Assembly (NCBI GenBank): GCA_029834535.1 | Contig: JAQMWT010000365.1 | Location: 26,323-90,322, forward strand | Direction of reading: 5' to 3' | Length of the DNA: 64,000 nucleotides | DNA from: Chrysophaeum taylorii | Taxonomy: Eukaryota; Sar; Pelagophyceae; Pelagomonadales; Pelagomonadaceae | Part shown: positions 1 to 35,018 of the stretch, one piece after another | Layout: each line of letters opens with the position of its first letter | Position numbering within the stretch: the stretch's first letter is position 1 | The notes under the pieces: generated by a model | Databases searched by the model: none | What the model was told of the DNA's origin: nothing | What the model saw: only the letters and a program-made list of their open reading frames with translations | Made by a program: the position numbers and the translations under genes

Positions 1-3000
1 GGACAGGCGTCGGCAGCACTGTTGGCGATGCCGGTTCCATTGGCGACGACGTCGGTGTGGCCGACTCTTGTGCGTGCATCGACGGAGAGCGCGTTGGCAC
101 CATACTTGGTAGAAAGCTTGGTTGCAATGTGATAAGCTGACTTGGGTTCTTCCCCACAGTGGTGGGCATCATCGTGGTATCGTCAGCACTGCTCGGCCGA
201 TGCGACAAAATCTCGGGGTATGTGGGTGCTGTTGCGGGTGATGTCGTAATCGGACCAACTGTTGCCACCACGGACGATTCGCTCGTCGGCAATGCGGTCG
301 GGGCAAGCGATGGGCTCAGAGTCGGAGCATTCGACGCGCTAGTCGATATACCGCTCGTTGGAATACTTGTGGTCATTGCAGTCGGCAGCGTTGTCGGAGT
401 GCTCGTTGATCTGGATGTTGATGCCGACGTGGGTAGAGTCGTTGGTCCGGACGTCGGTAGCATCGTCGAAGGCACCAACGGACGTGGAGTTGGCACCCAT
501 GTGAGCTGAAAAGCTGGCCCAGATGGCGGGTCATAAAGAGACGGAACAACAGCCGGAAATGATGACGGTTGTTTGCTACTAGAGATGGCAGGTGAGGTTG
601 GCGATGCGCTTCGAGTGGCTGCAATACTGGAAGGAAGTGTCGGAATCCCTGAAGGCAGAAAGGAGCTTGGTGCGCTCCCGACAGCACCGCGTCCGGGAAA
701 TGATGGCTGACCAGAAGCAATCGAACTCGGGGAAACTGACGGCTGGATATCGTTGTCGCGATCATCGCTCGGAGGTGGCGACGGTGCCCTAGGTAAGATT
801 GTAGTAGGTGTTGACACTGGCGAGACGCTTGGCACCGACGCTACGGGAAATAATGTTGGTGGGAGCGCGCTCTGAGTGGGGCTCAATTGCGAGAGCGTGG
901 GAGTTGTTGTCGCGTGCGCAGTGGCTGGCTGCGCAACGGGCGATTCGGTTGGTGATTCGATGGGGCTCGGGGCGCGTGAGCTTTCACCAGATAGTGGCCC
1001 AGTTGGTAGTGGTGTTGGACTCGGACTTGGGGAGAGCGACAGCAACGGACCACTTTTGAGAGAGGAGGTTGGCAGCTGCGATGGCCTATTCGTTGGCGTT
1101 ATCGACGGGATGCGTGTGCTTTCACGAGAAGGTGGTAATGTTGGACTCAGACTTGGCGAGGGTGACAGTGAGGGAAGGAGTGTTGGATAGGCGGTTGGCT
1201 CTCGCGACGGATGACTCGTTGGAATTGTCGATGGGAGGAGTGAGATTCCACCAGATGGTGGTGATGTTGGACTCTGACTCGGGGAAGGTGACAGAGACGG
1301 GGCTGTCGTGGGACACGAGGTCGGTGACTGTGATGGAGTGCTCGTCGGGATCGTTGAGGGGGGTCGTGCATTATCACCGGATGGAAGTGGTGTTGGACAC
1401 AGACTAGGTGAGTGGGTCAGCGACGGGCTCACTGTTGGAGCGAGGGTTGGACGCTGCGACGGGTTTCTCGAGGGAGTTGCTGACTGCTCGAAGCTCGGAG
1501 ACCACGATGGAGTCGATGATGGGGTGAAGCTCGGTGTACGTGTTGGAGGTAATGACGGGGCGAGGCTTGGGACATGACTCGGCGACGCACGTGGATGCTG
1601 AGTCGGGAGCGTACTCGCACCGAATGGTGACCTCGTGGGTTGCCTCGAAGGAACCCCAGTACTTGGCGACGCTGTTGGGGGCAGCGAGGGCGAAACTGTG
1701 GACGGCTTGGGTGTGGGTGAAAAAGAGGGACTGGCCGTGGGCACTTCAACAGGAGAGGTCGTTGGCGATGTCGTCGGCGCGAAGGATGGTGGCAACGTGG
1801 GCGACCGCGTTGGGCTTCTCGTAGGCGCCGCACTGGGCGAACCCGATGGCGACGTCGTCGATAGTAACGAGGGCTCGTGCGTGGGTGACGCGAAGGGTTG
1901 GGTTGCCGGGGATGCCGTGGGAGACCTTGATGGTGACATCAGAGGCAACCTCGAGGGCACAGATGTGGGAGGCGTCGACGGAAGGGTCGTAGGCTCCAAG
2001 CCAGGCGAGCTCGATGGCAACACTGTCGGCAAGGATAAGGACACGAATGTGGGAAACGCTTTTGGACAGGCCGCTGGCGACTCGCTGGGGTAACCTGACG
2101 GCGTGGTCGTTAGAAGAACAGGAGGCTCATATGTGGGTGACATTGAGGTACGGGATGTTGGCGCCGCTCTGGGGTAGAACGATGGTGATGTTGTTGGAGG
2201 CAACGACGGTAAGAATGATGACGACGAAATGGGAGTAATTGTCGGCACCGCACTGGGGTAGGCCGATGGCGCGGTCGTTGGAGACAGCGGAGGCTCGAAT
2301 GTGGGTATTGTTGAGGGACAGGGCATTGGCGGCTCGCTCGGCGTGCTCGATGGTGCTGTAAACGAGGATGCGAACGTGGGTGACGCTGAGGGACAGGTCG
2401 TCGGCGCCAAGCGGATCAAGCCCGACGATGGCATCGTCGGAAGGAACGACGGTGAAAACGTGGTTGAAGCCGAGGGACAGACGGTCGGTGCCGCCCTGGG
2501 CGAGTCCGATGGTGACGTCGTTGAAGGCACTGAAGGCGCGACAATGAATAACGCTGAGGGAAGCGTCGTCGGCGTCGCGCCGGTAAATCCCGACGGTGGC
2601 GTCGTTGGAAGCTGCCAAGGTGCGATTGTGGAAATTGTCGAGTGACGGGCTGTCGGCGCAGTACTGGGCGAGCCTGGATGTGTTGGCATCGCATGCAGCG
2701 AAGGCGCAAATTCGGGTGATGCCGACGGGCACATTGTTGGCGACACACTGGGTGAATCCAATTGAGAGGGCCATTCCGTCGGCGCTGCGCTGCGAAATCC
2801 TGATGGTGGCGTCGTCAGGACCCGTGCGACCGTGGAAAATGTCGAGGGCTCCGCATTCGGCAAGCCTGATGGTGACGGCGTCGCAAGCACCGAGGGCGCA
2901 AACGTGAGTAACTCTGAAGGGCAGATTGTCGGCGTCGTACTGGGCGAATTCAATGGTAACATTGTTGGCGACAGAAAAGTTGCGTTCGTGAAGGGCCAAG

Positions 3001-6000
3001 CTGTCGGCGCCGCGCTGGGCGAAACCGATGGTACCAACATCGGAAGATGCGAAGGTGAGAATGTGGACGATGCCGAGGGGTAGGTTGTTGGAGCAACACT
3101 GGGCGAGCCCGACGACGGTGGCGTCGTCAGAAGCAGCGAGGGCGCAAATATCGATGATGCCGAGGGGCAGTTCGTCGGCGCGGCGTATGGCGAGCCCGCT
3201 GGCGATGTTGTCGGAGTCAATGAGGGCGTGAGAGAGGGCGAGGTCAAGGGACACATTATTGGGCACGCGCTGGGATAACCCGATGGTGTCGTCATTGGAA
3301 GCTGCGAAGGTGCTACTGTGGAGAATGTCGAAGGACAAGCTGTCGGTGTAGCACTGGGCGAACCCGATGGTGGTGTCGTTGGAAGCAGCAAGCGTGAGTA
3401 GGATGAAGGGCAGATTGTCGGCGCCGTGCTGGGTGAAGCCAATGTTGGCGACAGAAAAGTTGCATTTGTGGACAATGTAGAGGGACAGGGCGTCGGCGCC
3501 GCGCTGGGCAAAAGGGATGGTGCCGACGTTCGAACCTGCGAAGTTGCGACTGTGGACGATGTCGAGGGACAGGTCGTCGGTGCAGTACTGGGCGAGCCCA
3601 ATGGTGGCATCGTCTGAAGCAGCGAGGGCAAAAACGTGGGTGATGCCCCGGGGTACTTTGTTGGCGCTGCGCTGGGCGAGCCCGATGGCGATGTTGTTGG
3701 AGATAACGAGGGCATGAATGAGGGTGATGTCAAGGGACAGACCGTCGGCCCTGCGCTGGGTGAGCCCCATGGTGTCCTTGTGGGAAGCTGCGATTGTGCG
3801 AGGGACGGTGATACCGAGGGACGCATCGTCCGCGCCGCGCCGGGTAAATCAGATGGCAATGTTGTTGAGGGCAACAATGGCACAAATGAGGGTGAAGGCA
3901 GCGAAGGTGCGAACGAGGGCGACACGGAGGGACAGGTTGTCGGCGCCGCTCTGGGCGAATCCGATGGAAACGTTGTCGAGGGTAGCAGCGAAGGCACGAA
4001 TGAGGGTGATGCCAAGGGATTGATCAACGGCGCTGTGCTAGGTGAGCCCGACGGTGACATTGTTGGAAGTGGTGATGGGGCTAACTTGGATGAAGTTGAC
4101 GGACGCGTCGACGGTACCACGCTCGGCGAATCTGACGGGAATGTTGTTGTTGAAGGCAGCGAAGGCGCGCTCGCGGGCAACGCGGACGGACACGTCGTCG
4201 GTGCATCCGTGGGCGAGCGAGATGGTGTTGATGTTGAAGACCGCGAAGGCGAGACTGTGGGTGATGACGTCGACGGACTGCTCGCGGGGCCCGCCCTCGG
4301 CGAGTCCGACGGTGACATCGTTGGAGGCAGGGATAATGCGAACGAGGGTGGCTCCGAAGGACGTGATGTTGGTGCCGTGCTTGGTGAGTCCGATGGTGCC
4401 GTCGTCAGGAGTTGCGAGGGCGTAGATGAGGGTGATATCGAGGGACAAATCGTCGACCCCGCGCTTGGTGAGCTCGATGGTGACGTTGTCGAAAGCAGAG
4501 ATGGTGAAATCGACGGTGACTCCGAAGGACATGTCGTCGGTGCCACGCTGGGTGAGTCCGATGGTGTCGTCGTTGGGAGTTGCGAGGGCGTGAATGACGG
4601 TGATGTCGAGGGGAAAATGGTCGGTCCCGCGCTTGGTGAGCTCGATGGTGACGTTGTTGAAAGCAGAAATGCTGAAATCGACGGTGACTCCGAAGGACAT
4701 GTCGTCGGTGCCACGCTGGGTGAGTCCGATGGTGTCGTCGTTGGGAGTTGCGAGGGCGTGAATGACGGTGATGTCGAGGGGAAAATGGTCGGTCCCGCGC
4801 TTGGTGAGCTCGATGGTGACGCTGTTGAGAGCAGAAATGGTGAAATCGACGGTGACTCCGAAGGACATGTCGTCGGTGCCACGCTGGGTGAGCCCGATGG
4901 TGCCGTCGTCGGGAGGTGCGAAGGCATAAAGGAGGGTGATGTCGAGGGACAGACAGTTGGCGCCGAGCTGGGTGAGCTTGATGGTGCCGTCGTCGGGAGT
5001 TGCGAGGGCGCGCGTGAAGGTGACGACAAGGGACAGACAGTTGGCGCCGAGCTGAGTGAGCCCGATGGTGCCGTCGTCGGGAGGTGCGAAGGCATAAAGG
5101 AGGGTGAAGACAAGGGACAGACAGTTGGCGCCGAGCTGAGTGAGCCCGACGGTGGTGGGGTCATCGGGAGGTGCGAAGGCATAAAGGAGGGTGAAGACAA
5201 GGGACAGACCGTCGGCGCCGAGCTGGGTGAGCCCGACGGTGGTGGGGTCGTCGGGAGTTGCGAGGGTACAAAGGAGGGTGATGACAAGGGACAGACCGTC
5301 GGCGCCGAGCTGGGTGAGCCCGACGGTGGTGGGGTCGTCGGGAGTTGCGAGGGCACAAAGGAGGGTGACGACAAGGGACAGACCGTTGGCGCCGAGCTGG
5401 GTGAGCCCGACGGTGGTGGGGTCGTCGGGAGGTGCGAGGGTACAAAGGAGGGTGACAACATGGGACAGACCGTCGGCGCCGAGCTGGGTGAGCTCGATGG
5501 TGGTGTCGTCGGGAGGTGCGAGGGCACAAAGGAGGGTGACGACAAGGGACAGACCGTTGGCGCCGAGCTGGGTGAGCTCGATGATGGTGTCGTCGGGAGG
5601 TGCGAGGGCACAAAGGAGGGTGACAACAAGGGACGATTTACCGTCGGCGCCGCGCTTGGTGAGCCCGATGGTGACGTTGTTGAAAGCAGCGATGGCGCGA
5701 TTGACGGTGACACCCGGGGACACGTCGTCGGCGCCGCGCTCGGTAAATCAGTTGGTAACGTTGTCGAGGGCATCGAAGGCGCGAACGAGGGTGAAGGCAG
5801 CGAAGATGCGAACGAGGGTGACACCGAGGGACGGGTCGTCGGCGCCGCGCTGGGCGAATCCGATGATGGAAACGTTGTCGAGGGTCGCTGCAGCGAGGGC
5901 ACGAACGAGGGTGATGCCGAGGGATTGATCATTATTGGCGCTGTGCTCGGTGAGCCCGATGGTGACATTGCTGGAAGTGGCGATGGGACCAACGTGGATA

Positions 6001-7702
6001 ACGTCGTCGACGGACGCGTCGACGGTACCATGCTGGGCGAATCCGACGGTAACGTTGTTGAAGGAGGCAGCGAAGGCGCGCTCGAGGGCAACGCGGTGGA
6101 CGGCCGGGTCGTCGGCGCTGCCGCGGGCAAGCGAGACGGTGTTGATGTTGAAGGCTGCGAAGGCGAGACTGTGGGTGAAGGCGACGGATAGATCGTGGGT
6201 CCCGCGCTCGGCGAGATCGAGGGTGACCTTGTCGAAGAATGCTGCGATGGTGCGAACGACGGTAGCGCCGAGGGACTCGCCGTCGGCGCGGACGCGGGGG
6301 AGTCCGACGGCGACGTTGTTGGAAGCAGCGATGGTGCGATTGAGGGAGACGCCAAGGGACATCTTGTCGGCGCCGCGCTCGGTGAATCCGATGGTGGCAG
6401 CGAAGGCGCGAACGTGGAGGAACAGATCGTCGGCGCCGCGGCGGGCGAGCCCGACGGAGACGTCGTCGGAAGGAGCGAAGATGCCCCCGACGGACTGAAC
6501 GTCGGGGGCATGCTGGGGGGTAAATCCGATGGTAAGGATGTTGGAAGCAACGAAGTCGGACATACGGTGGGAGGCGATGGTGTCGGCGCGAGGGCCTCGA
6601 AGGAGAAAAGGTAGGCTGCGCCCGAATCAGTGGCGAGCGAGTCGCTTCCGTAGGCGCCGACGACAATCTCGTCGTCATAGATTGCCGCGGACCTCCCGAA
6701 GAAGTCACCCGTGGCGGCGTCGTTCGGCTCGAGCTTGGCAATTAGGGTGGTAGAGTTGAAGACGTAGGCCGCCCCCGTGTCATTGTCGACACCCCAGGCC
6801 CCGACGAGGACGACGGCGTCAAAGACGGCGACGGCGCGGCCAAACTTGTCGGGGCTAGTGCCGTCGCTCGCCGTGAGCTTTGCACGCTGCGCGTAGGTCG
6901 TCGCGTCGTAGACGTAGGCGGCGCCCGCGTTGATGCCGAGATCGTCCTCGCGATGCGCCCCTACCACAATCGTGTCCCGGGAGATGGCGACGGATCTCCC
7001 GAAGAAGTCGCCTTCTTGGCCGTCGCTCGCGGTCAGCTTGGCTAGCTGGGTCGTCGCGTTGAAGACGTAAGCCGCGCCGGCTTCCGAGCCAAGATCCGAA
7101 TCGCGGTCCGCGCCGACTACGATCGTCCCATTGTATATCGCCGTCGACCAGCCAAAGTAGTCGCTCGCCCCGCCGTCGCTCGCAGCTAGTTTAGAAAGCT
7201 GCTCGTAAGTCGTCGCGTCGAACAAATAGACGGCACCGGTGCGCGCCGCGAACCCCGCGCCAAACGGCGCGCCCACGACGATCGTATTCGCGTCGATCGC
7301 CACCGCATACCCAAAGTTGTCGTCCTTGGCGCCGTCGCTCGCCGTCAGCTTGGCGACTTGCGAAGTCGACTCGAACACGTACGCAGCCCCAGACGACGAC
7401 CCCCGCGCGTCGGCGCCAAACGCGCCGACCACAATCATGTCGCCGTAGACCGCGGCAGACCTCCCAAAATAATCTCCCCCGGCGCCGTCGCTCGCCGTCA
7501 GCTTGGCGACCTGGGACGCGTTGCGGAAAACGTACGCGGCACCCCTCGCGACGTCGGCACCCCACGCCCCCACGACGATCGTCTCGCCAAACGCACTCAC
7601 GGCGCTTCCAAACTCGTCGCCTTCGCCGCCGTCTCTGGCGGTTAGCTTTGTGGCCTCGGAGGCGAACAAGATTATCGAGGAGGCGATCGCACTTAGCATC
7701 AT
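1..7702 (-). CDS. Giant secreted FG-GAP / Pro-Ser-Thr repeat protein (3' end beyond window)
   Basis: The frame starts at the first of two adjacent ATGs, 7702 and 7699. Two in-frame TAA codons lie just upstream, and no stop occurs before base 1, giving at least 2567 codons. Residues 1-17 form a short hydrophobic signal peptide (MMLSAIASSIILFASEA). Residues about 18-367 hold seven copies of an FG-GAP unit (pattern KLTASDG..GD.FG....A....IVVGA......GAAYVF), the number needed for an integrin-alpha-type seven-bladed beta-propeller. From about residue 370 the chain is Pro/Ser/Thr repeats such as SPSFVPSQLPTTPPPSGSP and DSPSVAPTTCPSESPSISP, with regularly spaced Cys. Such P-S-T tracts are common in stramenopile cell-surface or wall-associated proteins, so an extracellular adhesion or structural role is inferred. 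No membrane anchor is visible because the C-terminus is outside the window. High confidence in frame, moderate in role. Confidence 0.85.
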   Translation of the reverse strand, partial: MMLSAIASSIILFASEATKLTARDGGEGDEFGSAVSAFGETIVVGAWGADVARGAAYVFRNASQVAKLTASDGAGGDYFGRSAAVYGDMIVVGAFGADARGSSSGAAYVFESTSQVAKLTASDGAKDDNFGYAVAIDANTIVVGAPFGAGFAARTGAVYLFDATTYEQLSKLAASDGGASDYFGWSTAIYNGTIVVGADRDSDLGSEAGAAYVFNATTQLAKLTASDGQEGDFFGRSVAISRDTIVVGAHREDDLGINAGAAYVYDATTYAQRAKLTASDGTSPDKFGRAVAVFDAVVLVGAWGVDNDTGAAYVFNSTTLIAKLEPNDAATGDFFGRSAAIYDDEIVVGAYGSDSLATDSGAAYLFSFEALAPTPSPPTVCPTSLLPTSLPSDLPPSMPPTFSPSGASSLLPTTSPSGSPAAAPTICSSTFAPSLPPSDSPSAAPTRCPLASPSIAPSLLPTTSPSDSPASAPTASPSALPSFAPSQHSSTRSPSISPSAGPTIYPSPSPTVSPSQPSTSTPSRLPAAAPTTRPSTALPSSAPSLPPSTTLPSDSPSMVPSTRPSTTLSTLVPSPLPAMSPSGSPSTAPIMINPSASPSFVPSLQRPSTTFPSSDSPSAAPTTRPSVSPSFASSLPSPSFAPSMPSTTLPTDLPSAAPTTCPRVSPSIAPSLLSTTSPSGSPSAAPTVNRPLLSPSFVPSHLPTTPSSSSPSSAPTVCPLSSPSFVPSHLPTTPPSSSPSSAPTVCPMLSPSFVPSHLPTTPPPSGSPSSAPTVCPLSSPSFVPSQLPTTPPPSGSPSSAPTVCPLSSPSFVPSQLPTTPPPSGSPSSAPTVCPLSSPSFMPSHLPMTPPPSGSLSSAPTVCPLSSPSFMPSHLPTTAPSGSLSSAPTVCPLSSPSRAPSQLPTTAPSSSPSSAPTVCPSTSPSFMPSHLPTTAPSGSPSVAPTTCPSESPSISPFLLSTASPSSSPSAGPTIFPSTSPSFTPSQLPTTTPSDSPSVAPTTCPSESPSISAFLLSTTSPSSSPSAGPTIFPSTSPSFTPSQLPTTTPSDSPSVAPTTCPSESPSISPSLLSTTSPSSSPSAGSTICPSISPSSTPSQLLTTAPSDSPSTAPTSRPSEPPSFALSLPPTMSPSDSPRAGPASSPSTSSPTVSPSRSSTSTPSRSPTDAPTTCPSALPASAPSLPSTTTFPSDSPSVVPSTRPSTSSKLAPSPLPTMSPSGSPSTAPLINPLASPSFVPSLLPSTTFPSDSPRAAPTTCPSVSPSFAPSLPSPSFVPLLPSTTLPSDLPGAARTMRPSVSPSLAQSQLPTRTPWGSPSAGPTVCPLTSPSFMPSLSPTTSPSGSPSAAPTKYPGASPTFLPSLLQTMPPLGSPSTAPTTCPSTSSTVATSQVRTSAPSLLPSAAPTPCPSTLSTNATFLSPTLASPSTAPTICPSSYSRLLLPTTPPSGSPSATPTACPSTFSTVAPSQLPMTTPSGYPSACPIMCPLTSPSLTPSLTPTTSPAGSPYAAPTNCPSASSIFAPSLLLTTPPSSGSPSVAPTTYPSASSTFSPSHLPMLVPSVSPSAAPTAWPFTNATFLSPTMLPLNSPSTTPTICPSELLTFAPSVLATPSPSGLPNAEPSTFSTVARVLTTPPSGFRSAAPTEWPSQLDSPSVSPTMCPSASPEFAPSLHAMPTHPGSPSTAPTARHSTISTIAPWQLPTTPPSGFTGATPTTLPSALFIVAPSVPSTTSPSDSPRAAPTVCPSASTTFSPSFLPTMPSSGLIRLAPTTCPSASPTFASSFTAPSSTPSEPPMPCPSTIPTFEPPLSPTTAPSAYPSAVPTITPISSSSFLPSLPPTTSPSFYPRAAPTSRTSMSPTYEPPVLLTTTPSGYPSESPAACPKAFPTFVSLSLPTVLPSSSPGLEPTTLPSTPPTSVPSRLPLMSPSRSPTASPATQPFASPTHEPSLLSTTSPSGSPSAAPTRSPTRSPTLPPSFAPTTSPTTSPVEVPTASPSFSPTPKPSTVSPSLPPTASPSTGVPSRQPTRSPFGASTLPTQHPRASPSHVPSLAPSLPPTRTPSFTPSSTPSWSPSFEQSATPSRNPSQRPTLAPTVSPSLTHSPSLCPTPLPSGDNARPPSTIPTSTPSQSPTSCPTTAPSLSPSPSQSPTSPPSGGISLLPSTIPTSHPSREPTAYPTLLPSLSPSPSLSPTLPPSRESTRIPSITPTNRPSQLPTSSLKSGPLLSLSPSPSPTPLPTGPLSGESSRAPSPIESPTESPVAQPATAHATTTPTLSQLSPTQSALPPTLFPVASVPSVSPVSTPTTILPRAPSPPPSDDRDNDIQPSVSPSSIASGQPSFPGRGAVGSAPSSFLPSGIPTLPSSIAATRSASPTSPAISSSKQPSSFPAVVPSLYDPPSGPAFQLTWVPTPRPLVPSTMLPTSGPTTLPTSASTSRSTSTPTTLPTAMTTSIPTSGISTSASNAPTLSPSLAPTALPTSESSVVATVGPITTSPATAPTYPEILSHRPSSADDTTMMPTTVGKNPSQLITLQPSFLPSMVPTRSPSMHAQESATPTSSPMEPASPTVLPTPV
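4501..4836 (-). repeat. 168-bp higher-order tandem repeat inside the P-S-T region
   Basis: Two almost identical 168-bp units begin at 4501 and 4669, and a third diverged unit begins at 4837. Each encodes 56 residues (two 28-residue P-S-T subunits), so copy-number change would keep the frame. Near identity suggests recent duplication. Confidence 0.8.
4900..5640 (-). repeat. 84/87-bp tandem repeats encoding 28-29 residue P-S-T units
   Basis: Equivalent positions recur at 5196, 5283, 5370 and about 5457 with exact 87-bp spacing, then continue with 84-bp units in which one codon (a Pro on the coding strand) is missing. Each unit encodes SPSFVPSQLPTTPPPSGSP followed by SSAPTVCPL or a close variant. 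All length changes are multiples of three. Confidence 0.85.
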
Positions 7703-10052: not shown

Positions 10053-13000
10053 ATGATGCCTTCTTCATCGTTCGCGTCCGCGCTCCGGAGCGCAATCGAG
10101 GCCGACGGTTCGCAAGACTTCGCCACCGTGTGGAACTGGGGCGTCGAGCAACGGCTGAGCTTCGGCGATTTGGGAGCGGCAGTGGCCTCGGGTGCCGAGC
10201 GGCTCGGCGAGCTGCATGTCAAGGCAGGAGACAGGATCGCGCTGCTGGCCAAGGGCGTGTTGGATTTTTATGTGTGCGTCCTCAGTTTGCAGGCCCGTCG
10301 CGCGACCCCGGTCGCGCTCAACTGGCGGCAGAGTCCGGAGAATTTGAGGGGCATGATTCGCGACGCGGGCGCGAGCGTCGTCGCGGTCGGCGCGCCGTTC
10401 TACGGCCTCGCGGAGGAGCTGGGCGCGACGAGAATGGTCGCGCTCGACGGGGGAAACCCCAACATCGAGCGCTGGTCTTGGAGTCTCTCCCCTGGGTCGT
10501 CGGCGTTGGTGGCCGCCACGAGGGCCTCGCGGAGGAGCGACGAAGCTATGGTATTCTTCACGTCCGGGTCTACGTCTCGGCCCAAGCCCGTGCTCCACAC
10601 CAACGAGACGCTTCTGTGGACCGCGGAGAACTTCGTGTTTCCTCCGAACACCAAGACGACCCTCTGCTTCATGCCGAATTTCCACGTTTTGATGTGTTTC
10701 CAAAACTTTCTGCTCCCGTTGGCGAGGCGCGTCGGAGTCTCGATTCACGGCGGCGACGACCCCATCACCTCGCGCCTCCTCCTCGCCGCGTGCGCCGACC
10801 TCAGGCCCTCCACGATCGACACGGTACCTTTTATTATGGCCGACTGGAGCACGATGTCTGCGGCGGAGCTCGCCCCGTTAGCGGCGTGCCGAGCCGTAAG
10901 GTCGGGCGGCGCGCCGCTCAACCAGGCCGTTGCCGAGCGACTCGTCGCCGCGGGCGTTCGAGTTCAAACGCACTACGGGCAGACAGAGGCACCAGGCATG
11001 CAGCTGCTGACGGTTCCCGGCGCCGCACCATCGGAGCTCGCGATTTTCTACCCGCCGGTGTCGGTCGTCGAGATCAAGCTCGACGGCAACGGCGGCCAGG
11101 AGGGCGAGTTGTTGATCAGGGGGTGCCGCGGGTCTAGCCCGGGGTACTTGCGAGACGGGTCGCTCCTGGCAAATTCGTCGCGAACGGGTGCCGACGGCTG
11201 GCACCGTACCGGCGACGTGTTTCGTCGCGTGAAGACGAAGGCGGGCGCGGCTGGCATCGAGCACGTGATGCGATCTGACGACGTCATCCTTCTCAACACG
11301 GGCGAGATGTTCAACCCGGTGCCGATGGAGGCGGCCATCACGCGATTTGCAACACTCCGAGATATCCCGGTCGGCCGGGTCGTGGTGCTGGGTCAGGAGC
11401 GCCCCGCACCCTTCCTCGTCGTCGAGCCCCTCGACGAGGGGCGCCTCTTCGCGGTCGAAGAGCTGTGGCCCGCGATCGAAAGCGCGAACTTGGCCGAGGT
11501 CGAGTACGCCCGCATTCGCTCGCCCGGATACGTCCTGATCCTCGACAAGACCGTGAAGCTTCCCCGGTCGGCAAAGGGCAACGTCGTTCGGCCCCGCGCC
11601 GAGAACGTCTGCGCGACTCGCTTGGACGAGCTCGCGACGCTCGCGGACGAAAGGCTCGCCGACGGGCTCGACTGGGACGCCTTGGAGGCCAAAGCCGCCG
11701 CCGCTGGGTTCAGCTCTGTCGATGCGTACCTTGCTGAACACAAGGAAGAGGCCGTCGTCGGCATCGACTCCCTCGGTATCGCTACCATCCTGAAACGCGG
11801 GCAACGAGAAGCGGACCGAATCGGCGACAACATCAAGGCGTGGACGGTCACGGCCATCGTGATGAGCCACTGGTACCAGGTCCTCTTTTTCAAAGGTAGT
11901 CCCGCCGGGACTCTCGAGTCCTTCACCGATGCCTCCGCGAACACCCCCTTCGCCGCCGTCTCGTACGGGGTGCAGGCGACGATCACCGCGTTCACTCTCG
12001 TCGACGGCTGGAACGCCCAGGGTATGCTGCCCGTCATGATCCCTCTGCTGTGGAGCGTCGGGTACTCGGACTCGGTGCGCGACGGCCTCCCGCGCCGCCG
12101 CGTCGCGCTTGGAAAGCGCGAAATCACGCTCCTGCTGCTGATTCTCCTCTACAAGTGTTTCGTCATGCCGTATACGCTCTACGTCTACGACAAAGTCTCG
12201 TGGAAACCCGCCTTCTTTTCGTGCCCTTCCCCGGGGAGCGTCGTCTGGTTCGTCTACGCTCTCTTCTGGTACCGAATCCTGCTGCGCGGGGTGCAACTCG
12301 TCGTCGACCCCCCTGCCTCCAAGATAGTGCTCGTCGCGCTTTGCCTCGCCTGGCTCTTCGCGTACGTCGAAGGTGGTCGAGGGGGCACGTTTTGCAATTT
12401 CTGCACGATCCGAGCTCCCATCCTTCCCCGCCACCTCAACGCATTTTTCTCGTTTCTCGTCGATCCCGACACCTATCTCGTCCCTCGGCACGCCCTCAAT
12501 TCAAATGATTTGACGTTCCAGCTCGTCAGAATCGGAGATCAGAATTGGCTCGCCGTCGGCGCCGCGAGCAGCGTGAACCTCGGCAGAGGGTTCTTGTGGA
12601 TGGATAGCAAGATCCTGTCGTTAGCGGCACCGTACGTCCTCGGATATTTTTTTGGGGACAAGATTTTGGCCTTCATCCGAAAACGCACCCCGTTTGCTCT
12701 CCTCGACGTCGTTCTTTGCTACGGAGGGTCCGCCCTGTGGTTCATCATCCTGGCGTCGTGGGCGTCGCATCGCCGCGACTGGGGCATCCCAAACAACGTG
12801 CATCGCCTCCACACGCACTCCGAAGACGACGATAACTGGGTTGACCACCTCTCGTCCTTAATCTGGCACCACACCAATCAAGAGCACGCCGACGTCTTCC
12901 AAGAATGGAACCCGGTTTGGGCGAGGCCGTTTTACTTGATGGTATGCTGGTCGTTCCAATACACGATCGGCTTCTTCGTCATCGCCGCCTGCGTCTCGGC

Positions 13001-13679
13001 ACCCTTTCGGATGAACAGATGCGGCAACGCGGCCTTGGGCAAGTACTTTTCTACCTACATGTTCCCGTGGTATTATAACGCCGTCGGTTACGTGGCTGCT
13101 CTCGCCGGGCGAAAATGCGGAGCTGCGAATATCTTGGTCAAAATCTTCCAAGTTTGCTGGCTCATCTTCGGTCCGCTTGCCTTCGTCTACATCTGGGGCC
13201 CCATCGCCACCGCCCTCGTCGTCAGCTTCCCCAAGTTTATGTTTTGGTTCTTCGACACTCTCTGGCGGGCGAACCCAAAGTTGACCTTGGAGGACATAGT
13301 CAACTGGTGTTTGTACGACGGCCCCAAAGGCATGAAAGACTTTTGCGACCAGTACGCGAGCGAAATCGTCCGCGACCTCAAAGCGCTCCGCGAGTGGCTC
13401 GCCGCCTGGACCACGAATCCCCGGGAAAATCTCGCCCCCGTCGCGGATCCCCTCGATGCTCTTCGTGGCCACCTCCAAGACGCGTACTGTGCCATATCAA
13501 CGCATTTCCGCACCACGGCCTCGGGCCCCCTCGCAATCCCGCTCCTTAAAACACACACCGCTGTCTCGCCTCGAGACCCGGACTACTATGGTTCCACCGC
13601 GCCTATTCAAGACCCGGACTACTACTACGACGGTTCCACCACTCCTATTCTCGACAAATCGCAACCATACGAACCGTGA
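10053..13679 (+). CDS. Adenylation domain - carrier domain - multi-pass membrane acyltransferase-like fusion
   Basis: 1208 residues, one exon. Residues about 10-515 are an ANL (acyl/amino-acid adenylate-forming) domain. It has the P-loop-like FFTSGSTSRPKPVLHTNE near residue 168 (where the usual TGxPKG reads TSRPKP), THYGQTEAPG near 305 and DGWHRTGDVF near 380. Residues about 545-590 look like a phosphopantetheine carrier segment: EEAVVGIDSLGIATIL with Ser573 as the expected attachment site. From about 600 to 1075 there are roughly ten hydrophobic segments. They end with a block (GKYFSTYMFPWYYNAVGYVA) resembling the last part of acyltransferase-3 family membrane proteins; this assignment is an inference. 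The tail has short Asp-Pro-Asp-Tyr-Tyr repeats. The likely logic is activation of an acid as AMP ester, loading on Ser573 and transfer across or at a membrane. Substrate is unknown. Starts at 10053 and 10056 are both possible. Confidence 0.85.
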   Translation: MMPSSSFASALRSAIEADGSQDFATVWNWGVEQRLSFGDLGAAVASGAERLGELHVKAGDRIALLAKGVLDFYVCVLSLQARRATPVALNWRQSPENLRGMIRDAGASVVAVGAPFYGLAEELGATRMVALDGGNPNIERWSWSLSPGSSALVAATRASRRSDEAMVFFTSGSTSRPKPVLHTNETLLWTAENFVFPPNTKTTLCFMPNFHVLMCFQNFLLPLARRVGVSIHGGDDPITSRLLLAACADLRPSTIDTVPFIMADWSTMSAAELAPLAACRAVRSGGAPLNQAVAERLVAAGVRVQTHYGQTEAPGMQLLTVPGAAPSELAIFYPPVSVVEIKLDGNGGQEGELLIRGCRGSSPGYLRDGSLLANSSRTGADGWHRTGDVFRRVKTKAGAAGIEHVMRSDDVILLNTGEMFNPVPMEAAITRFATLRDIPVGRVVVLGQERPAPFLVVEPLDEGRLFAVEELWPAIESANLAEVEYARIRSPGYVLILDKTVKLPRSAKGNVVRPRAENVCATRLDELATLADERLADGLDWDALEAKAAAAGFSSVDAYLAEHKEEAVVGIDSLGIATILKRGQREADRIGDNIKAWTVTAIVMSHWYQVLFFKGSPAGTLESFTDASANTPFAAVSYGVQATITAFTLVDGWNAQGMLPVMIPLLWSVGYSDSVRDGLPRRRVALGKREITLLLLILLYKCFVMPYTLYVYDKVSWKPAFFSCPSPGSVVWFVYALFWYRILLRGVQLVVDPPASKIVLVALCLAWLFAYVEGGRGGTFCNFCTIRAPILPRHLNAFFSFLVDPDTYLVPRHALNSNDLTFQLVRIGDQNWLAVGAASSVNLGRGFLWMDSKILSLAAPYVLGYFFGDKILAFIRKRTPFALLDVVLCYGGSALWFIILASWASHRRDWGIPNNVHRLHTHSEDDDNWVDHLSSLIWHHTNQEHADVFQEWNPVWARPFYLMVCWSFQYTIGFFVIAACVSAPFRMNRCGNAALGKYFSTYMFPWYYNAVGYVAALAGRKCGAANILVKIFQVCWLIFGPLAFVYIWGPIATALVVSFPKFMFWFFDTLWRANPKLTLEDIVNWCLYDGPKGMKDFCDQYASEIVRDLKALREWLAAWTTNPRENLAPVADPLDALRGHLQDAYCAISTHFRTTASGPLAIPLLKTHTAVSPRDPDYYGSTAPIQDPDYYYDGSTTPILDKSQPYEP

Positions 13680-15193: not shown

Positions 15194-16657
15194 ATGGTGG
15201 TTGTCGGGCACGGTCAGCACGAGGAAGAGGACGAGGAGAACTGGTTTTGGTGGCAGCGCGGGCTGGTCCACGCGCCTCGCGCCGTGGTGGTGTGGGACCA
15301 CACCGACGAATCGAGGGAATCAAGGGGCATTGTGGAGCCCGGCCGCAAGGTGACCTGGTCCGAGTTGTTCCTTGATTTGGTACTGGTCACCAACGTCGCA
15401 AAACTCGGCGAAGCGTACCAATCGGGGGCTTTGTCGTTGATGGAAGTCGCACTGCTGTATCGCACCATCCACAACTGCTGGTGGTCGACGACAAAGTACG
15501 CGATGCGCTTCCACACGGACGACCTACCGCACAAAGCCAAGACGGGGCTGTGCATGTTCTTTCTGTTGTTTGCGGGGTTGCGGCTGGGGGCACCATTTGG
15601 CCCCGCGGCGCGCCAGGTCGCGCTCGCGGCTGGCTTGTACCACGCGGTAATGGCAGCATCGGTGTGGCGAGTCGTCGCGTCGATTCCGGAGGCGAGGCGC
15701 CACATGACGCGCGACGCGCTCGTCCCTAGCATCCTCGAGGCGGCGGGGTGCCTGGTGGCATCGCGATTGGAGGCCCACGTCTTTGGGCTTCTGACGGTCC
15801 TGGCATTTTTCGAGCTCTTTTGGAGCGCGCTCGTCCATTACGCGTGGGAAACCCTCCCCAAAAAGGAGCGGATCCCCGTCCACATCCACCATTTGGTCGA
15901 ACGCCGCGGCTGCATCCGACTCATCCTGATGGGGGAAGTCGTGACGGGCTGCGCCGTCTCGACGAGGATAACGCCCGAGAGCGTCGCCTCGGTCTCCCTT
16001 GCCTTCCTCAGCATCTTCAACATGAAGCTCCTCGCCTTTGACGTCGACAGCGTCCCCAGTCGCCGCCACGCCGTCCGCATCGGCGTCTTCGCGAGGCCCC
16101 TCATTTGGCTCGAGGCGGCCTTCGCCTTTGACTTTTGCATGGGCATCGCTGGATCCTGCGTGCGTATCATTCTCTCGATGCTCACGAGCGACATAACCTC
16201 GGTTCGGGCCGAGGAGGCCCACGTCCTTCTCTGCGCGAGCGTCGCCGCCGCCGTCCTCTGCCTCACCTTGGAGCACCTCATGCACGACCAGGCCCACGTC
16301 CTCGGCACCCGCCACTGCTGGACGACCTGGGGTCGACCCTCCCACAAAGACCACTTCGAAGAGAAGGACGACGACGACGACGACCTCGCGCAGGCGAGGC
16401 GGATATTTTACTTCCAAGTCGCTTCTGAGGCCGGGATCTTCGTGTCCTGCGTCGCGCTCGCCGCCTATTGCAGCTCGATCGAACGCGACTACGAGGTCCT
16501 CCTCGTCCTGGCGTCCATCGCTGCACTCACCACGCTGGCCGTCGTGGTCAACCTCCTCGACGAAGTCCACCTCATATGGACGCGTGCCTCGGCGGGCTCG
16601 GCGGCCGAGCGCCGGGCCCTCGCGACCACCCCCCGCGAACTCTCTCTGGTTGGCTAG
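15194..16657 (+). CDS. LtrA-family (low temperature requirement A) membrane protein
   Basis: 487 residues. After a charged N-terminus (about 50 residues, acidic EEEDEEN run) comes GRKVTWSELFLDLVLVTNVA, the family's first-helix signature (compare the usual W.ELF.DLV.V). It is followed by about ten hydrophobic segments and HHLVERRGCIRLILMGEVV, which matches the conserved H..ER.....I.LGE block of LtrA proteins. An acidic loop DDDDDD lies near residue 395. LtrA proteins are polytopic membrane proteins of poorly known function, first linked to growth in the cold in Listeria. The length is usual for the family. The gene converges on the RNA-binding protein gene, and the stop codons share the palindrome CTAG at 16654-16657. 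Confidence 0.8.
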   Translation: MVVVGHGQHEEEDEENWFWWQRGLVHAPRAVVVWDHTDESRESRGIVEPGRKVTWSELFLDLVLVTNVAKLGEAYQSGALSLMEVALLYRTIHNCWWSTTKYAMRFHTDDLPHKAKTGLCMFFLLFAGLRLGAPFGPAARQVALAAGLYHAVMAASVWRVVASIPEARRHMTRDALVPSILEAAGCLVASRLEAHVFGLLTVLAFFELFWSALVHYAWETLPKKERIPVHIHHLVERRGCIRLILMGEVVTGCAVSTRITPESVASVSLAFLSIFNMKLLAFDVDSVPSRRHAVRIGVFARPLIWLEAAFAFDFCMGIAGSCVRIILSMLTSDITSVRAEEAHVLLCASVAAAVLCLTLEHLMHDQAHVLGTRHCWTTWGRPSHKDHFEEKDDDDDDLAQARRIFYFQVASEAGIFVSCVALAAYCSSIERDYEVLLVLASIAALTTLAVVVNLLDEVHLIWTRASAGSAAERRALATTPRELSLVG

Positions 16658-20909: not shown

Positions 20910-23411
20910 TTAGTTGCTGCTCGCGATGCGCGGCCGTTTGGCAGCGGGGGCGAAATCGGGGTCGAACGTGTCGTCGATCTCCTTTCGGAAATTGTGGAAG
21001 TTTGCTCTTGAGATTGGGAAATCCCGGCGGGAGATTCCGGGGAGTTTGGAGATCTGACTGACTCGGTCGTCGATGTAGTTGGCCTTCATGCCGCCCTTCG
21101 CTTCGAAGGCCTTGGGCATCGGATCCGATGGGTTCTTGTGCTTCATGTACAACATCGCAAGGTAGCGGCGTACGAAGCCGAGGAGTTTGGTGGCAAGTGC
21201 GCGCTTTTTGCCAATTTCCATGTTCGACGATGCCAATCCCTTGATTTCGGCGTCGGTTCCCATAAACCTGACATACTTGAGCAGATTCTCGCAGCGTCTC
21301 TTGTCCTGGCGTGTCATGGTGGGAGGCAATTTATGTCCTAACCACCCGACAACGACATCCACGGCGGCGACGCCACTGAGTTTGTCGAGGTCGAATGAGG
21401 GTGCTGCGCTGGAACGCACGAGCATGTTGTTGGCTGTTGGAGGAGCGGTCGCGTGAGTGCAGGCCGGGAAGACGGAGGGTGGGAGAGGGCCTCGAGATTG
21501 CATGACCAAAGGCGGCATGACTGCCGCCGGCGTGGGCGGGGGCACGACAACGGCTGTGGGCGCCGGTGCGGGGATTGGTGCATTCACGATCCGCTCGGGC
21601 TGAGGCACGACAGGGGCCGGGGCCAAGGCCGGGACCGACGCCGATGCCATCGCGGGAGGCGGCGGCGGTGGTGGAAGCGGAGCGACGGGGTTGTGCGCTG
21701 CTGGAGGCGGCAGCGCCGGTGGAGGCGGCAGGAGTGGCTGCTCCGGTGGCTCGATTGGCTGCAGTTGCGGTGGTTGGGCTGGCTGCGCGACTCCAAAGTT
21801 ATCGAGCAGGCACCGAACCATCATCTGCAGCTGATCGAACTTTCCGTGGAGTTGATCGACCTTTCCGTGGAGCTCGCGGTTTTCGTTGCGCTGGCGAGCC
21901 ATCTCACGATCCTCATCGCCTGAGATCCAGCGGCCTGTGAGGTGAAGGTTGGCCTCGTCGAACGCAGAGCGAATTTTGCGGCTCCATTGGCGAAGGACGG
22001 CGTCGGGCGCGCCGTACTGCGTACTAAAGATATGATTGACGGCGTCTCGAAGCTTAAGGTTAACGAACAGGAAATAATTGCCGTCCTGCCGCTCGGGGTA
22101 GTACATGACGATGCTGGCGAAGGCCGCCGTGATGAGGCTCCACAGCTTCCCGTCGCGTTGATATTCTTCGGGGTACTGGGTGTCGATCTGAAGCACGGCT
22201 TTTATGACATCGACGAGCTTGTCGGGGTCAACGCCGAGGGCGAGGATGACGTCGATGGACGCCGGCACGGGACCGCGGGGTATTTGGCCCCAAGCCGGCT
22301 TGCGCCAGCCCGCGAGGATGATAGCGCCCGGCATGACTTGGCAGTTCAACTTCCGGAAGTATTCGAAGAATGCTGAGACAGAGCGAAGCTCGTGTCCCGT
22401 CACCATTACGCAGTGCTCGAGGGCCAACGAGCCGGCAAGATACTCGCAGACACCGTGGCGGAAGCTAGCCGCGGAGGCGTTGTCGGGAGGCTTGTCGTCG
22501 CCGCCAGTAATTTCGACGGCTTCGAAGCTGCGAGCACGCGAGCCTCGGGCCGCCGTTGAGGAATGCGGCAACAGGTCCTTGACGTATCGCCCGATCCTCT
22601 TCGCGGAGCTGTCGGTGTTGACGAGGTCGGGGAAGAGCCAGCGAGTGCCGTCGTCCTCCTGGACTTCGAGGCGATTGAGGACCATGTTGTCGGCAAACGA
22701 CGTAAGAATGCAGCGTTCCCACCCGTTCCCCGCAATCCAGGCAGTGAGCTTGGTCTTCGAGACCTTGGACTGCGGCACCGTGATGAACCACGCGTTGAAC
22801 TGGACGTCGAAGCGTCCCACGTTTCCTAGCGCCATCCACCTGGGCTCGCTCGATCGAGCCCCTGCCATCCAGAGGCCGTGGATCGTGTGGATGCGCTTGG
22901 CGGATTCCTGGCTGCCCTTCCGAGCGTAGGCCCGGACAATGCGGTCAATTTGGCAAGGGTAGATAGCTGGAGCCGTGTGGTCCTCATCTTCGCCCGCCGC
23001 CATCGAGCGTTGAGACTTGATGCGCTGGATGTTGTGGCGTATACCACGATACCAGACGGCCCATTCCGAGCGCGAATCCGAGTTGAGACACATGAAGAAG
23101 TCTTTGACGTCCGCCGCCGCTCCCCGAACGTCGAACCTGGTCTTGGCGGCCCGGAGGACGATGCCCAAAATGTCGAGGATGCTCGTCGTTCCGAGGCTCG
23201 TTTCCTCGACGAGATAGAAGGCGAAGCGTTCCCAAACCCTGGGCGTCGCCAAGACCGCAACGTCCACATCGCTGAAGGGGCCCCGGGGCCGGTCGCCTTT
23301 GCCGTTGGCGAAAGCATTGAAGTGCCGAATCGCGTTCGTTCGAGCTCGGTCGCGGTCTCCAGACATTCCTGCGCTCCCGATGGTTCCGCTGGGAACCGCG
23401 GCGCCGCTCAT
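20910..23411 (-). CDS. Tyrosine recombinase (Crypton-like transposase)
   Basis: 833 residues. An N-terminal helical region (about 20-120, core-binding-like) precedes the catalytic domain. Arg186 lies in LWMAGARSSEPRW. Lys residues of PQSKVSKTKL fit the beta-hairpin lysine. Arg318 lies in SFRHGVCEYLAG, His340 in VTGHELRS and Tyr351 in SAFFEYFRK. The spacings R-22-H-11-Y fit a tyrosine recombinase, though the first His of the usual HxxR is Ala. Residues about 545-660 are Pro/Ala-rich linker. The C-terminus (GWLGHKLPPTMTRQDKRRCE and following) is helical and basic and may bind DNA. The enzyme would cut and rejoin DNA through Tyr351. The gene fills the transposon and appears intact. GC-rich codon use resembles host genes. 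Confidence 0.8.
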   Translation of the reverse strand: MSGAAVPSGTIGSAGMSGDRDRARTNAIRHFNAFANGKGDRPRGPFSDVDVAVLATPRVWERFAFYLVEETSLGTTSILDILGIVLRAAKTRFDVRGAAADVKDFFMCLNSDSRSEWAVWYRGIRHNIQRIKSQRSMAAGEDEDHTAPAIYPCQIDRIVRAYARKGSQESAKRIHTIHGLWMAGARSSEPRWMALGNVGRFDVQFNAWFITVPQSKVSKTKLTAWIAGNGWERCILTSFADNMVLNRLEVQEDDGTRWLFPDLVNTDSSAKRIGRYVKDLLPHSSTAARGSRARSFEAVEITGGDDKPPDNASAASFRHGVCEYLAGSLALEHCVMVTGHELRSVSAFFEYFRKLNCQVMPGAIILAGWRKPAWGQIPRGPVPASIDVILALGVDPDKLVDVIKAVLQIDTQYPEEYQRDGKLWSLITAAFASIVMYYPERQDGNYFLFVNLKLRDAVNHIFSTQYGAPDAVLRQWSRKIRSAFDEANLHLTGRWISGDEDREMARQRNENRELHGKVDQLHGKFDQLQMMVRCLLDNFGVAQPAQPPQLQPIEPPEQPLLPPPPALPPPAAHNPVAPLPPPPPPPAMASASVPALAPAPVVPQPERIVNAPIPAPAPTAVVVPPPTPAAVMPPLVMQSRGPLPPSVFPACTHATAPPTANNMLVRSSAAPSFDLDKLSGVAAVDVVVGWLGHKLPPTMTRQDKRRCENLLKYVRFMGTDAEIKGLASSNMEIGKKRALATKLLGFVRRYLAMLYMKHKNPSDPMPKAFEAKGGMKANYIDDRVSQISKLPGISRRDFPISRANFHNFRKEIDDTFDPDFAPAAKRPRIASSN

Positions 23412-26177: not shown

Positions 26178-27575
26178 TCAACGACGACGACGACTACGAC
26201 GACGGCGGTGGCGGCGGCGGTGGCGGCCGAGCATGATGGGTCGGAGGTGAAGGAGGGGGGGCGGGAATATGGGCATGCTGGCGTCGGGAAAGAGGAGGTG
26301 GGAGCTTTGGCGGTGGCTATTGAGGACGCCCTGTTGGCGCCTGGCGCGGTGGTGCATCCAGGCGCACTTTGGCGAGTCGTTTGGGCGCGTGCCCATCCAG
26401 ACCGAACCGCCCTTTTCGTGCGGGCGGTTGATCTTGGCACAGAGGGCGTCGAGGCGGCGGGTCGCGTCGGGGACGGTCCCCTGGGAGACGTATCTCTTGT
26501 GGTGGAGGAGCAACAAGGGTCCGAAAATAGGGGTCGCGCAGCGCGTGGGCCTCTCGGCGTCGCGGACGTTGAAAGCTGAGGGGAGAGCACCGAAGGTCCA
26601 ACCTCCGTCGGTCGCGTTGGTCGTCGCGTTCCGGCAGTTCCGGTCCATCAATCTGGCGAGGGGAGCCTGGTCGCCCCCAAAGCTGCGGGCCGCGTAGGAG
26701 GAGCGGTTGGCGCTGGCGGCGTCGAGCAAGGCAGCGTAGTAATCGAGATAGGTGCGTATCCACTCGTTGGCGAATCTCTCTGCTTTGGGACCTCTCCTGA
26801 CGGCGAAGGCGCCGCCCTGGGCCCCCGAGCAGAATTCCCCCGCGCGGTCGAGGCACTTGGCGTTGAGGCTCGCCGAGAAGGGTTGGGTGTCAGCACGCCG
26901 CCACACGCATCTCTGTGCCTCGGAAAACGCCGATTCTTCGAGAGACGTTTTGGCAAAAATTTTGCCGCGGATGTCGAAGCGGTGACGCCGGTGCAAGTCT
27001 TTTAACGCGATCGAAACGTCACCGCAGAAAAAGGTGTCGTCGTCCACGAAGAGCGTGAGGTCGTAGGGGCCGCGGCCGAGATTTGCGATGCGGCCGACTC
27101 TAGACCTCACCTTGAGCCGACGCTCGCGGAGCAAAGGATTTGAAGTTTCGCCAAACAGAAGCGAGTGCTGCACAACGCCTGGCAGCCCGTCGGGAACCAC
27201 CAAGTCGAACAATCTGCTGCTAAAGTTGTAGCTCTCGACCACCGCTTTCACCTGCGCCTCCTCGAGGTCCGTGAACAGGCACACGGGGACCGCGCCGCGC
27301 AGACTCGACGCCGACAAGACAACATTCCGGAGCTTACGCCGCGCCTCGCTCAGGTTAAACACGCTCTCCACGACCATGTTCCTCGTGTAGCACACCCCCA
27401 CGCTGCCGTTCGACCCCAACGCCCCTGTCGCCATCACGACGACCGCCCGCAACATCCCGTTCAACGGTTCACGCACGACCCCATCCTCGACCGAATATTT
27501 TGTACGCAAATACATACACGCAAAACACAAATACAATAATACAAATACAGCTGATAAGGGTAAGTAAGTAAGCAA
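26178..27575 (-). CDS. Type II membrane glycosyltransferase-like protein
   Basis: 465 residues. Residues about 4-24 (LPLSAVFVLLYLCFACMYL) form a signal anchor, followed by a luminal domain with several NxS/T sequons. YDLTLFVDDDTFFCGDV near residues 169-185 gives a DxD-type metal/nucleotide-sugar motif placed as in GT-A glycosyltransferases. AQGGAFAVRRG and FGGDQAPLARLM resemble later acceptor-site blocks of such enzymes. Golgi location and transfer of a sugar from a nucleotide donor are inferred; donor and acceptor are unknown. The last about 45 residues (LGRHRRRHRRRRSRRRR) come from simple ACG/GGC repeats, so the true C-terminus may lie earlier or behind an intron. Confidence 0.65.
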   Translation of the reverse strand: MLTYLPLSAVFVLLYLCFACMYLRTKYSVEDGVVREPLNGMLRAVVVMATGALGSNGSVGVCYTRNMVVESVFNLSEARRKLRNVVLSASSLRGAVPVCLFTDLEEAQVKAVVESYNFSSRLFDLVVPDGLPGVVQHSLLFGETSNPLLRERRLKVRSRVGRIANLGRGPYDLTLFVDDDTFFCGDVSIALKDLHRRHRFDIRGKIFAKTSLEESAFSEAQRCVWRRADTQPFSASLNAKCLDRAGEFCSGAQGGAFAVRRGPKAERFANEWIRTYLDYYAALLDAASANRSSYAARSFGGDQAPLARLMDRNCRNATTNATDGGWTFGALPSAFNVRDAERPTRCATPIFGPLLLLHHKRYVSQGTVPDATRRLDALCAKINRPHEKGGSVWMGTRPNDSPKCAWMHHRARRQQGVLNSHRQSSHLLFPDASMPIFPPPLLHLRPIMLGRHRRRHRRRRSRRRR

Positions 27576-34211: not shown

Positions 34212-35018
34212 CTAGCCGTCGTTGAAGTTGGTGTTGACGGCGCGGGAACTGTAGAAGAAGTTGGCGAGAGTGACCGCGTCGAAGGTGGTCAGATTGAAAT
34301 CTCGGCGGAACGTGTTGCCATAAAAGGGGAGTTCGGTGCACTCGATTAGAGCCGCGCGCGTTTTGGGGTTCTGCTCGAGTTGCTGGGCCAGGAGGGTCTT
34401 GATTCCGCGGTTGACAAGGGTCGTGTTGACTGCTTGGCCTTTCGCCACGGCGTCGAAGCCCTCGATGTCTTGGCACCCGACCACGTAGAACTGGTCCATC
34501 TTGTCATCCCGGATTCCGCACATCCCTAGAAGTTCTGGAATCGCCGGCTCGAGCGACGTCGAATTCGCCGTGAAGATTGCCACCCGCTCGTCCTCTTCGA
34601 ACGAGCTCGCGAGCAGCGACGACTGCAGAAGGCTCGACATGAAAACGGGCAAGTGCGTCAGATCGTTCACGACCTTCTGGTAAAACATCATGAACCCGCA
34701 GTCCCCCGTCAACCCGACCACACCCTTTCCCTCCAGAACCTTTACAGCCCGCGCGAGCTCCTCCTTGATCCCCGCATCGATGTACCCCGCCTGAGCGCGC
34801 TCGAACGTCAACCCCTTCACAACCTCGCGTATCACTTTGAACGTGAACGTGTTGGGCCCGTCGATGTCGCCATCGATTGGAGGGTAGTCGTAGTCGATTC
34901 CCAGCACGCCGAGCACTTTGTCGTCTTCGAAGATCGAACTCGCTCGCAGCTTCGCGACCCGCCGGATCTGCGTGCGTGGCGCAAACGCCAACGCCGACGA
35001 CGCGAGGACCAGCCACAT
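34212..35018 (-). CDS. Plastid-targeted Asp/Glu racemase-superfamily-like protein
   Basis: 268 residues. MWLVLASSALAFAPRTQIRR is a signal peptide ending in ALAF-AP with Phe at +1 and a basic stretch after it. This is the canonical bipartite plastid import signal of stramenopiles. The mature protein starts VLGVLGIDYDYPPIDGDIDG. It contains GVVGLTGDCGFMMFYQKVV, which corresponds to the conserved (T)xxCGF block with its catalytic-type Cys in a bacterial group of aspartate/glutamate racemase-family proteins, and HLPVFMSSLLQSSLL, another block of that group. A C-terminal second cysteine (ALIECTELP) occupies the place of the partner Cys. Substrate is unknown; amino-acid racemisation is only a family-level possibility. 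It is probably ancient bacterial in origin. Confidence 0.65.
   Translation of the reverse strand: MWLVLASSALAFAPRTQIRRVAKLRASSIFEDDKVLGVLGIDYDYPPIDGDIDGPNTFTFKVIREVVKGLTFERAQAGYIDAGIKEELARAVKVLEGKGVVGLTGDCGFMMFYQKVVNDLTHLPVFMSSLLQSSLLASSFEEDERVAIFTANSTSLEPAIPELLGMCGIRDDKMDQFYVVGCQDIEGFDAVAKGQAVNTTLVNRGIKTLLAQQLEQNPKTRAALIECTELPFYGNTFRRDFNLTTFDAVTLANFFYSSRAVNTNFNDG

Follow-up and report, generated by a model that had tools for sequence, protein, structure and literature searches.

In D-alanylation, an amino-acid ligase (DltA), a complete carrier (DltC) and a membrane enzyme of the MBOAT type (DltB) act as separate proteins, following a logic of activation, thioester carrier and membrane transfer. 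Other known systems unite such steps in one chain: Aas-type acyltransferase/acyl-(acyl carrier protein) ligases (NCBIfam PRK08043) join a ligase and an acyltransferase in one protein, and epsilon-poly-lysine and poly-ornithine synthetases follow the order adenylation, carrier and membrane part. Here, we analysed a 64,000-nucleotide stretch of DNA from the pelagophyte alga Chrysophaeum taylorii (hereafter the window), in which one uninterrupted open reading frame (ORF; 10053..13679, + strand, ATG to TGA) encodes a protein of 1208 residues. In this protein, an adenosine monophosphate (AMP)-forming ligase is followed by a short carrier-like peptide and a membrane domain. On balance, we favour the reading that it is a membrane acyltransferase of the acyltransferase-3 (AT3)/TmAT type equipped with its own acid-activating enzyme, which would activate a non-amino acid and transfer it outwards.

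According to PMC12423673 and PMC9833829, AT3 proteins are recognised by four motifs: DxxRx10H (helix 1), FxxxxG (helix 2), RxxR (helix 3) and SxxxY (helix 9). The literature also describes TmAT families, including Cas1_AcylT and TraX, in which Lys replaces Arg in the helix-1 signature. With the members OpgC, WecH, OafB and OatA, the window protein shares DxxR(K)x10H, FxxxxG and a basic loop before helix 3; unlike them, it reaches no significant family score, shows neither RxxR in helix 3 nor SxxxY and has a fused ligase.

Ligase domain

The ORF is coding along its entire length, membrane half included. In the ligase part, guanine-cytosine content at the three codon positions (1/2/3) amounts to 0.64/0.51/0.83, and in the membrane part it stays gene-like at 0.54/0.44/0.79. 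A first-order Markov model of this DNA gives 658 open codons a chance of 2.5e-7. The window holds no paralogue of the ORF.

Residues 24-526 form an AMP-forming ligase that activates an acyl group, an assignment we regard as solid. The large AMP-binding subdomain (10122..11150, +; residues 24-366) matches PF00501 (E 2.4e-42) and, by phmmer, solved acyl- and aryl-coenzyme A (CoA) ligases, and the C-terminal subdomain (11277..11630, +; residues 409-526) matches AMP-binding_C_3 (PF23562, E 3.6e-17), in agreement with the adenylate-forming domain that a sequence-only reading of this DNA had claimed. The stretches TSGSTSRPKPV at 170, YGQTEAPG at 308 and GWHRTGD within 378-388 are present, which we take to be the P-loop, YGxTE and TGD core motifs of ANL ligases. 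PF23562 is widespread, occurring in 72 of 119 sampled genomes of one phylum; in a comparison with 11 of these PF23562 proteins, the window protein stood apart in its final ligase motif (LPRSAKGNVVR).

As to the substrate, the closest solved relatives found by phmmer are anthranilate, feruloyl, chlorobenzoate, benzoate and fatty-acid CoA ligases (E ~1e-14 to 1e-11). The top NCBIfam model is that of a long-chain acyl-CoA ligase (98 bits, far below its cut-off), and the amino-acid adenylation model TIGR01733 stays at 73.3 bits with a cut-off of 317.4. Of four alignments inspected, three place MPNFHV of the window protein over PLFH/PLYH of CoA ligases, where non-ribosomal peptide synthetase adenylation domains carry FDxS. 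An alpha-amino acid is disfavoured because MPNFHV matches the CoA-ligase motif and not FDxS, and the predicted substrate class is most likely a non-amino acid.

Membrane domain

By hydropathy, the membrane domain (11826..13253, +; residues 592-1067) comprises nine to ten segments: nine peaks past residue 600 and a weaker segment at 594-613, which remains below the threshold, as may be expected of a segment with K and H in it. The earlier count of about ten membrane segments is thereby confirmed. The first segment carries an AT3-type first-helix signature, D592-x2-K595-x10-H606 (11826..11870, +), which was found with a 28-column AT3 profile as well as by pattern and shows the exact AT3 spacing with Lys replacing Arg. 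A second segment (11946..12017, +; residues 632-655, by hydropathy) contains, by pattern, F647xxxxG652, placed after the first-helix signature as in AT3 helix 2. It leads into a basic loop (12018..12122, +; residues 656-690, PRRRVALGKRE) that is predicted to be cytosolic and has six Lys and Arg residues without an exact RxxR. Lys and Arg make up 12 of 71 residues in the loops assigned to the cytosol vs 14 of 176 outside (p 0.036).

Further along the chain, the segment with VWFVYALFWY (12237..12305, +; residues 729-751) is the best site for the general AT3 'LWFL' profile. Two of three profiles give this 'WF' site their top score within the protein, at its expected place in the order, and the DN-type profile misses it; equally high scores occur in 2 of 33 polytopic decoys and in 37 of the 2072 decoy ORFs. 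An acidic, His-rich loop (SEDDD...WHHTNQEH; 12759-12929, +; residues 903-959) was placed on the far membrane side and could bind a metal or the acceptor. The chain closes with a tail (13254..13676, +; residues 1068-1208) that has no family match.

The profile behind the first-helix site was built from 36 AT3 sequences (27 of 30 loci, three of the 27 below the Pfam cut-off, plus OpgC and eight L022 relatives), and 2072 six-frame ORFs of at least 150 codons (679,325 residues) from E. coli and two further genomes served as decoys. Across all 1208 residues, its best site is residue 581 with 18.3 bits. Five of the 2072 decoys score higher and all five are TmAT proteins: OpgC (itself in the profile), an actinobacterial AT3, WecH, YcfT and YeiB. 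On residues 581-616 the AT3 first-helix profile gives 19.7, compared with a shuffle mean of -2.7 (standard deviation 2.9), and 0 of 300 segment shuffles score as high, though the site was picked post hoc. A broader AT3 first-helix profile finds the same site and ranks it above 33 of 33 polytopic decoys. These comparisons suggest that the membrane domain probably has an AT3/TmAT fold. The sequence-only reading had likewise called for an AT3-like block; signature and decoy rank confirm such a block in part, and the signs of it sit at residues 581-616, where the membrane half begins, and not at its end as had been proposed.

In the mechanism that we favour, the cytosolic ligase domain would convert a carboxylic acid via acyl-AMP into a thioester, which the membrane domain would take up at its cytosolic mouth, formed by D592, K595 and the basic stretch 681-689. 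The acyl end would then move along the pore past H606 and be handed to a lumenal or outer-side acceptor. Such a route resembles the proposal, in PMC9833829, that AT3 proteins take cytosolic acyl-CoA and transfer the acyl group outwards.

Bacterial one-chain fusions

Bacterial proteins join PF00501, PF00550 and PF01757 in that order in one chain. With such proteins known, the logic proposed in the sequence-only reading gains in credibility and the architecture loses some of its uniqueness. We located such fusions at four loci (L061, 2485-5037; L062, 2570-5119; L060, 3008-5623; L248, 3980-6586). Among eight long AT3-containing frames, L060, L061 and L062 were examined closely; the other five were compared by phmmer alone, which also missed these three. 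L061 alone among the three passes all three family cut-offs, and PF01757 reaches 29.8, 24.2 and 28.8 bits (cut-off 31) in the two others and a Rhizobium etli fusion. In L060, L061 and L062, PF00550 aligns solely at model positions 2-48 of 67, and in four scanned fusions the match ends at position 46-51 of 67. The final helix of the carrier thus looks absent or diverged in the four scanned bacterial fusions.

Among 296 genomes of one phylum (Actinobacteria), L061 as query finds 15 with a match at E<=1e-60, which reaches into the AT3 half in 13 of the 15. A search of PLSDB yielded 105 matching plasmid records (E<=1e-20), of which 81 cover at least 80% of the protein, mostly from Rhizobium, Leisingera and Rhodococcus. 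Among the matches listed, the usual annotation is 'AMP-binding protein'. A carrier motif followed by R-x10-H occurs in 12 of 14 bacterial fusions, no motif being detected in the other two. Ten ORFs scanned near four fusion genes, a part of all neighbours, show no common theme.

How closely does the algal protein resemble these fusions? Like it, proteins such as Rhizobium etli WP_086083377.1 have a ligase, a carrier signature and R/K-x10-H in the first helix of one chain. They differ in total length (about 850-900 residues), in matching PF00550, in a membrane domain of about 300 residues vs about 475 in the window protein, and in the spacing from Ser to the helix (47-67 vs 22). An hhalign comparison with a bacterial fusion aligned the ligase parts only (96% probability, residues 31-393). 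Homology along the whole chain was not detected, and the AT3 profile of the fusions misses the first-helix site. The window protein is analogous to the bacterial fusions, only the ligase halves being detectably related by sequence. As to Aas-type proteins, the PRK08043 model matched a bacterial fusion and is absent among the 25 matches listed for the window protein. In Aas, the acyltransferase is a PlsC-type domain on the opposite side of the ligase.

In the open literature, as judged by titles and the beginnings of abstracts, we found no description of a ligase-AT3 or adenylation-carrier-AT3 fusion, and no known product of the window protein or the bacterial fusions.

Carrier-like peptide and acyl donor

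Between ligase and membrane domain lies the carrier-like signature GIDSL (11760..11774, +; residues 570-574), which occurs only once in the protein and sits 47 residues past the end of the PF23562 match. Of 20000 shuffles of the 66-residue linker, 93 contain the motif, and its frequency in the 2072 decoy ORFs leads to 0.0014 expected occurrences per linker; an accidental pentapeptide (chance 0.1-0.5%) is unlikely. The continuation D-S-L-G-I-A-T-I-L presumably resembles the short ybbR peptide modified by Sfp transferases.

A carrier domain around this peptide is another matter. The sequence-only reading had predicted a carrier motif with Ser573, and both the motif and the serine are as stated. 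The carrier fold that it implied fares less well: PF00550 has no match in the ORF even at E<=10, and a purpose-built carrier hidden Markov model from 11 sequences matches 15 residues and no more. With the motif removed, the N and C halves of the putative carrier score no better than shuffles against a profile of 20 carriers (198 and 183 of 300 shuffles, respectively, reach at least the real score). The AcpP control, itself part of the profile, outscores 300 of 300. There is no room for carrier helices III and IV because Ser573 and K595 lie only 22 residues apart, compared with 47-67 residues in 12 bacterial fusions. Hence, a canonical four-helix carrier around Ser573 is not supported by the sequence.

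But, where does the thioester reside? Three points slightly favour CoA over Ser573-pantetheine as donor: the likeness of the ligase to CoA ligases, the use of CoA ascribed to AT3 proteins, and a carrier that is only partial. The special case of our favoured reading in which the acyl group rides on phosphopantetheine at Ser573, with the carrier reduced to a second helix that runs into the first membrane helix and so would hold the arm at the entrance of the AT3 pore, is possible and doubtful. In its favour, GIDSL stands where a carrier serine belongs, with the bacterial fusions as precedent, and a single-sequence model of residues 520-625 (predicted local distance difference test, pLDDT, 60.6, which is weak) draws 564-613 as one helix. 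The absent PF00550 match, the shuffle results and the missing space for helices III and IV argue against it. So does geometry: a phosphopantetheine arm is about 20 A long and would be too far from H606 in a straight 564-613 rod, so that a kink near G591 would be needed. In its favour again, PMC9338922 reports that helix 2 of DltC and the following loop bind AcpS, DltA and DltB, helix 2 being the part recognised by the partners.

Alternative readings

Rather unlikely, in our view, is that the membrane half is an unrelated polytopic protein, e.g. a transporter, which would take up or flip an acid and couple this to activating it. The results that follow weigh against an AT3 acyltransferase; the missing family matches, the whole-domain scores and the absence of RxxR and SxxxY speak at the same time for an unrelated protein. 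PF01757 and MBOAT have no match in the ORF at E<=10, a negative that is limited by HMMER filters, which discard most matches above E ~0.1; the profile check suggested earlier for the membrane half hence came back empty. RxxR is absent from 656-690, where only RRR at 681-683 is found (RxxR occurs at 582 and 986), and SxxxY is absent past residue 560. The best other decoy of the 28-column profile reaches 17.9 bits and leaves a margin of 0.4 bits. With the DN-type and the bacterial-fusion profile, the best first-helix site lies elsewhere in the protein; OpgC is likewise outside the six best of the latter. The AT3 helix-2 profile misses F647xxxxG652, preferring a site in the ligase, and is equalled by 9 of 33 decoys. 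Among 20000 local shuffles, 1266 show the bare pattern D..[RK]x10H at any place and 338 within the first 60 residues, and it is found in 1 of 27 natural polytopic ORFs.

Whole-domain AT3 profiles point the same way, remaining within the range of polytopic decoys (z 1.6, 1.5, 2.3), as does another set of such scores (z 2.4, 2.4, 0.9, not above decoys); YeiB, a true distant member, is also within decoy range for all three whole-domain profiles. When the membrane half was compared with AT3 alignments by hhalign, the first helix was the only part to align (P 0.008, 0.055, 0.002), and an AF2 single-sequence model of 516-1090 is not usable (pLDDT 40.7). Searches of Pfam, NCBIfam, PHROG and PDB sequences gave no match of note to the membrane half. 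Relatives of it were also not found in viral contigs, species genomes (by peptide patterns), plasmids (tblastn, E<=10), solved structures and PHROGs. DNA patterns for the first-helix motif gave three viral and two genome matches, none of them an AT3 protein, and L022-type AT3 relatives sought in viral contigs were not found.

Against an unrelated protein stand the rank of the first segment among the decoys and the exact spacing of the signature. A match of the membrane half to a transporter family, which would have spoken against the sequence-only reading, did not appear in the Pfam search.

Two further comparisons were set aside. A regular expression of four landmarks occurred in 12 of 20000 shuffles, but it was dropped as it matched just 3 of 58 known AT3 proteins and had been fixed post hoc. 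When the window protein was aligned with 49 of 63 listed phage AT3 proteins, an invariant His fell on H606; the remainder of that alignment was judged unreliable from its invariant columns, and it would also have forced an AT3 fold on any model.

A bolder version of the acyltransferase reading, which we consider unlikely, is a eukaryotic one-chain acyl exporter that arose independently of bacteria and whose carrier has shrunk to a single pantetheine-bearing helix joined to the AT3 pore. Activation, tethering and trans-membrane delivery would then proceed without a free carrier or CoA.

It is highly improbable that the carrier is complete, with 575-613 as helices II-IV and DxxKx10H falling into helix IV by accident. 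For this reading, the length from Ser573 to 613 would suffice and an alignment with E. coli AcpP can be drawn by hand. Against it, the C-half carrier profile gives 575-614 a score of -5.8, with shuffles averaging -4.6, and the AT3 profile scores 19.7 on 581-616 against -2.7. Least credible of all is an amino-acid polymer or aminoacylation enzyme of the epsilon-poly-lysine synthetase or Dlt kind, which fits the order of adenylation, carrier-like motif and membrane part. Against it, the longest segment between membrane helices has 84 residues, unlike the six helices in three pairs with segments of about 180 residues between them given for poly-amino-acid synthetases in PMC10522769, the amino-acid adenylation model stays far below its cut-off and MBOAT is not matched. 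Of the two systems to which the sequence-only reading had compared the protein, epsilon-poly-lysine synthetase is consequently no fitting counterpart, lacking as the window protein is in long soluble segments between helix pairs; Dlt is comparable in general logic and differs in its MBOAT enzyme and in a ligase that here lies nearer to acyl-CoA models than to amino-acid adenylation.

Neighbouring genes

Eukaryote-type genes elsewhere in the window contain MyTH4, RVT_2 and WD40 domains. An LtrA-family membrane protein (15194-16657, +; PF06772, E 1.8e-23) is encoded 1.5 kb downstream on the same strand. Copia-type retrotransposon-like pieces extend over 55569-61422 (+), with RVT_2 at 59894-60775. 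A very long FG-GAP repeat protein with Pro/Ser-rich repeats (2-7702, -) continues past the window edge; PF14312 matches it in seven stretches (5000-7702 scanned). An ORF of 268 residues (34212-35018, -) without a Pfam match has the N-terminus ASSALAFAPR, which resembles the plastid presequences found in red-lineage algae. Two more ORFs, of 833 residues (20910-23411, -) and 465 residues (26178-27575, -), have no Pfam match at 0.001.

Biological meaning

No domain of the algal protein is new in kind, and bacteria have a counterpart; the interest lies mainly in the missing half of the carrier and in a bacterial family for which we found no study. The delivery of acyl groups to extracytosolic acceptors is poorly understood, and AT3 proteins are thought to use acyl-CoA (PMC12423673 and PMC9833829). 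Donors bound to a carrier next to such a domain would suggest that AT3 pores can accept them as well. With a ligase beside the pore and a bacterial family that bears a carrier, donor, activation and membrane transfer could be studied in one chain.

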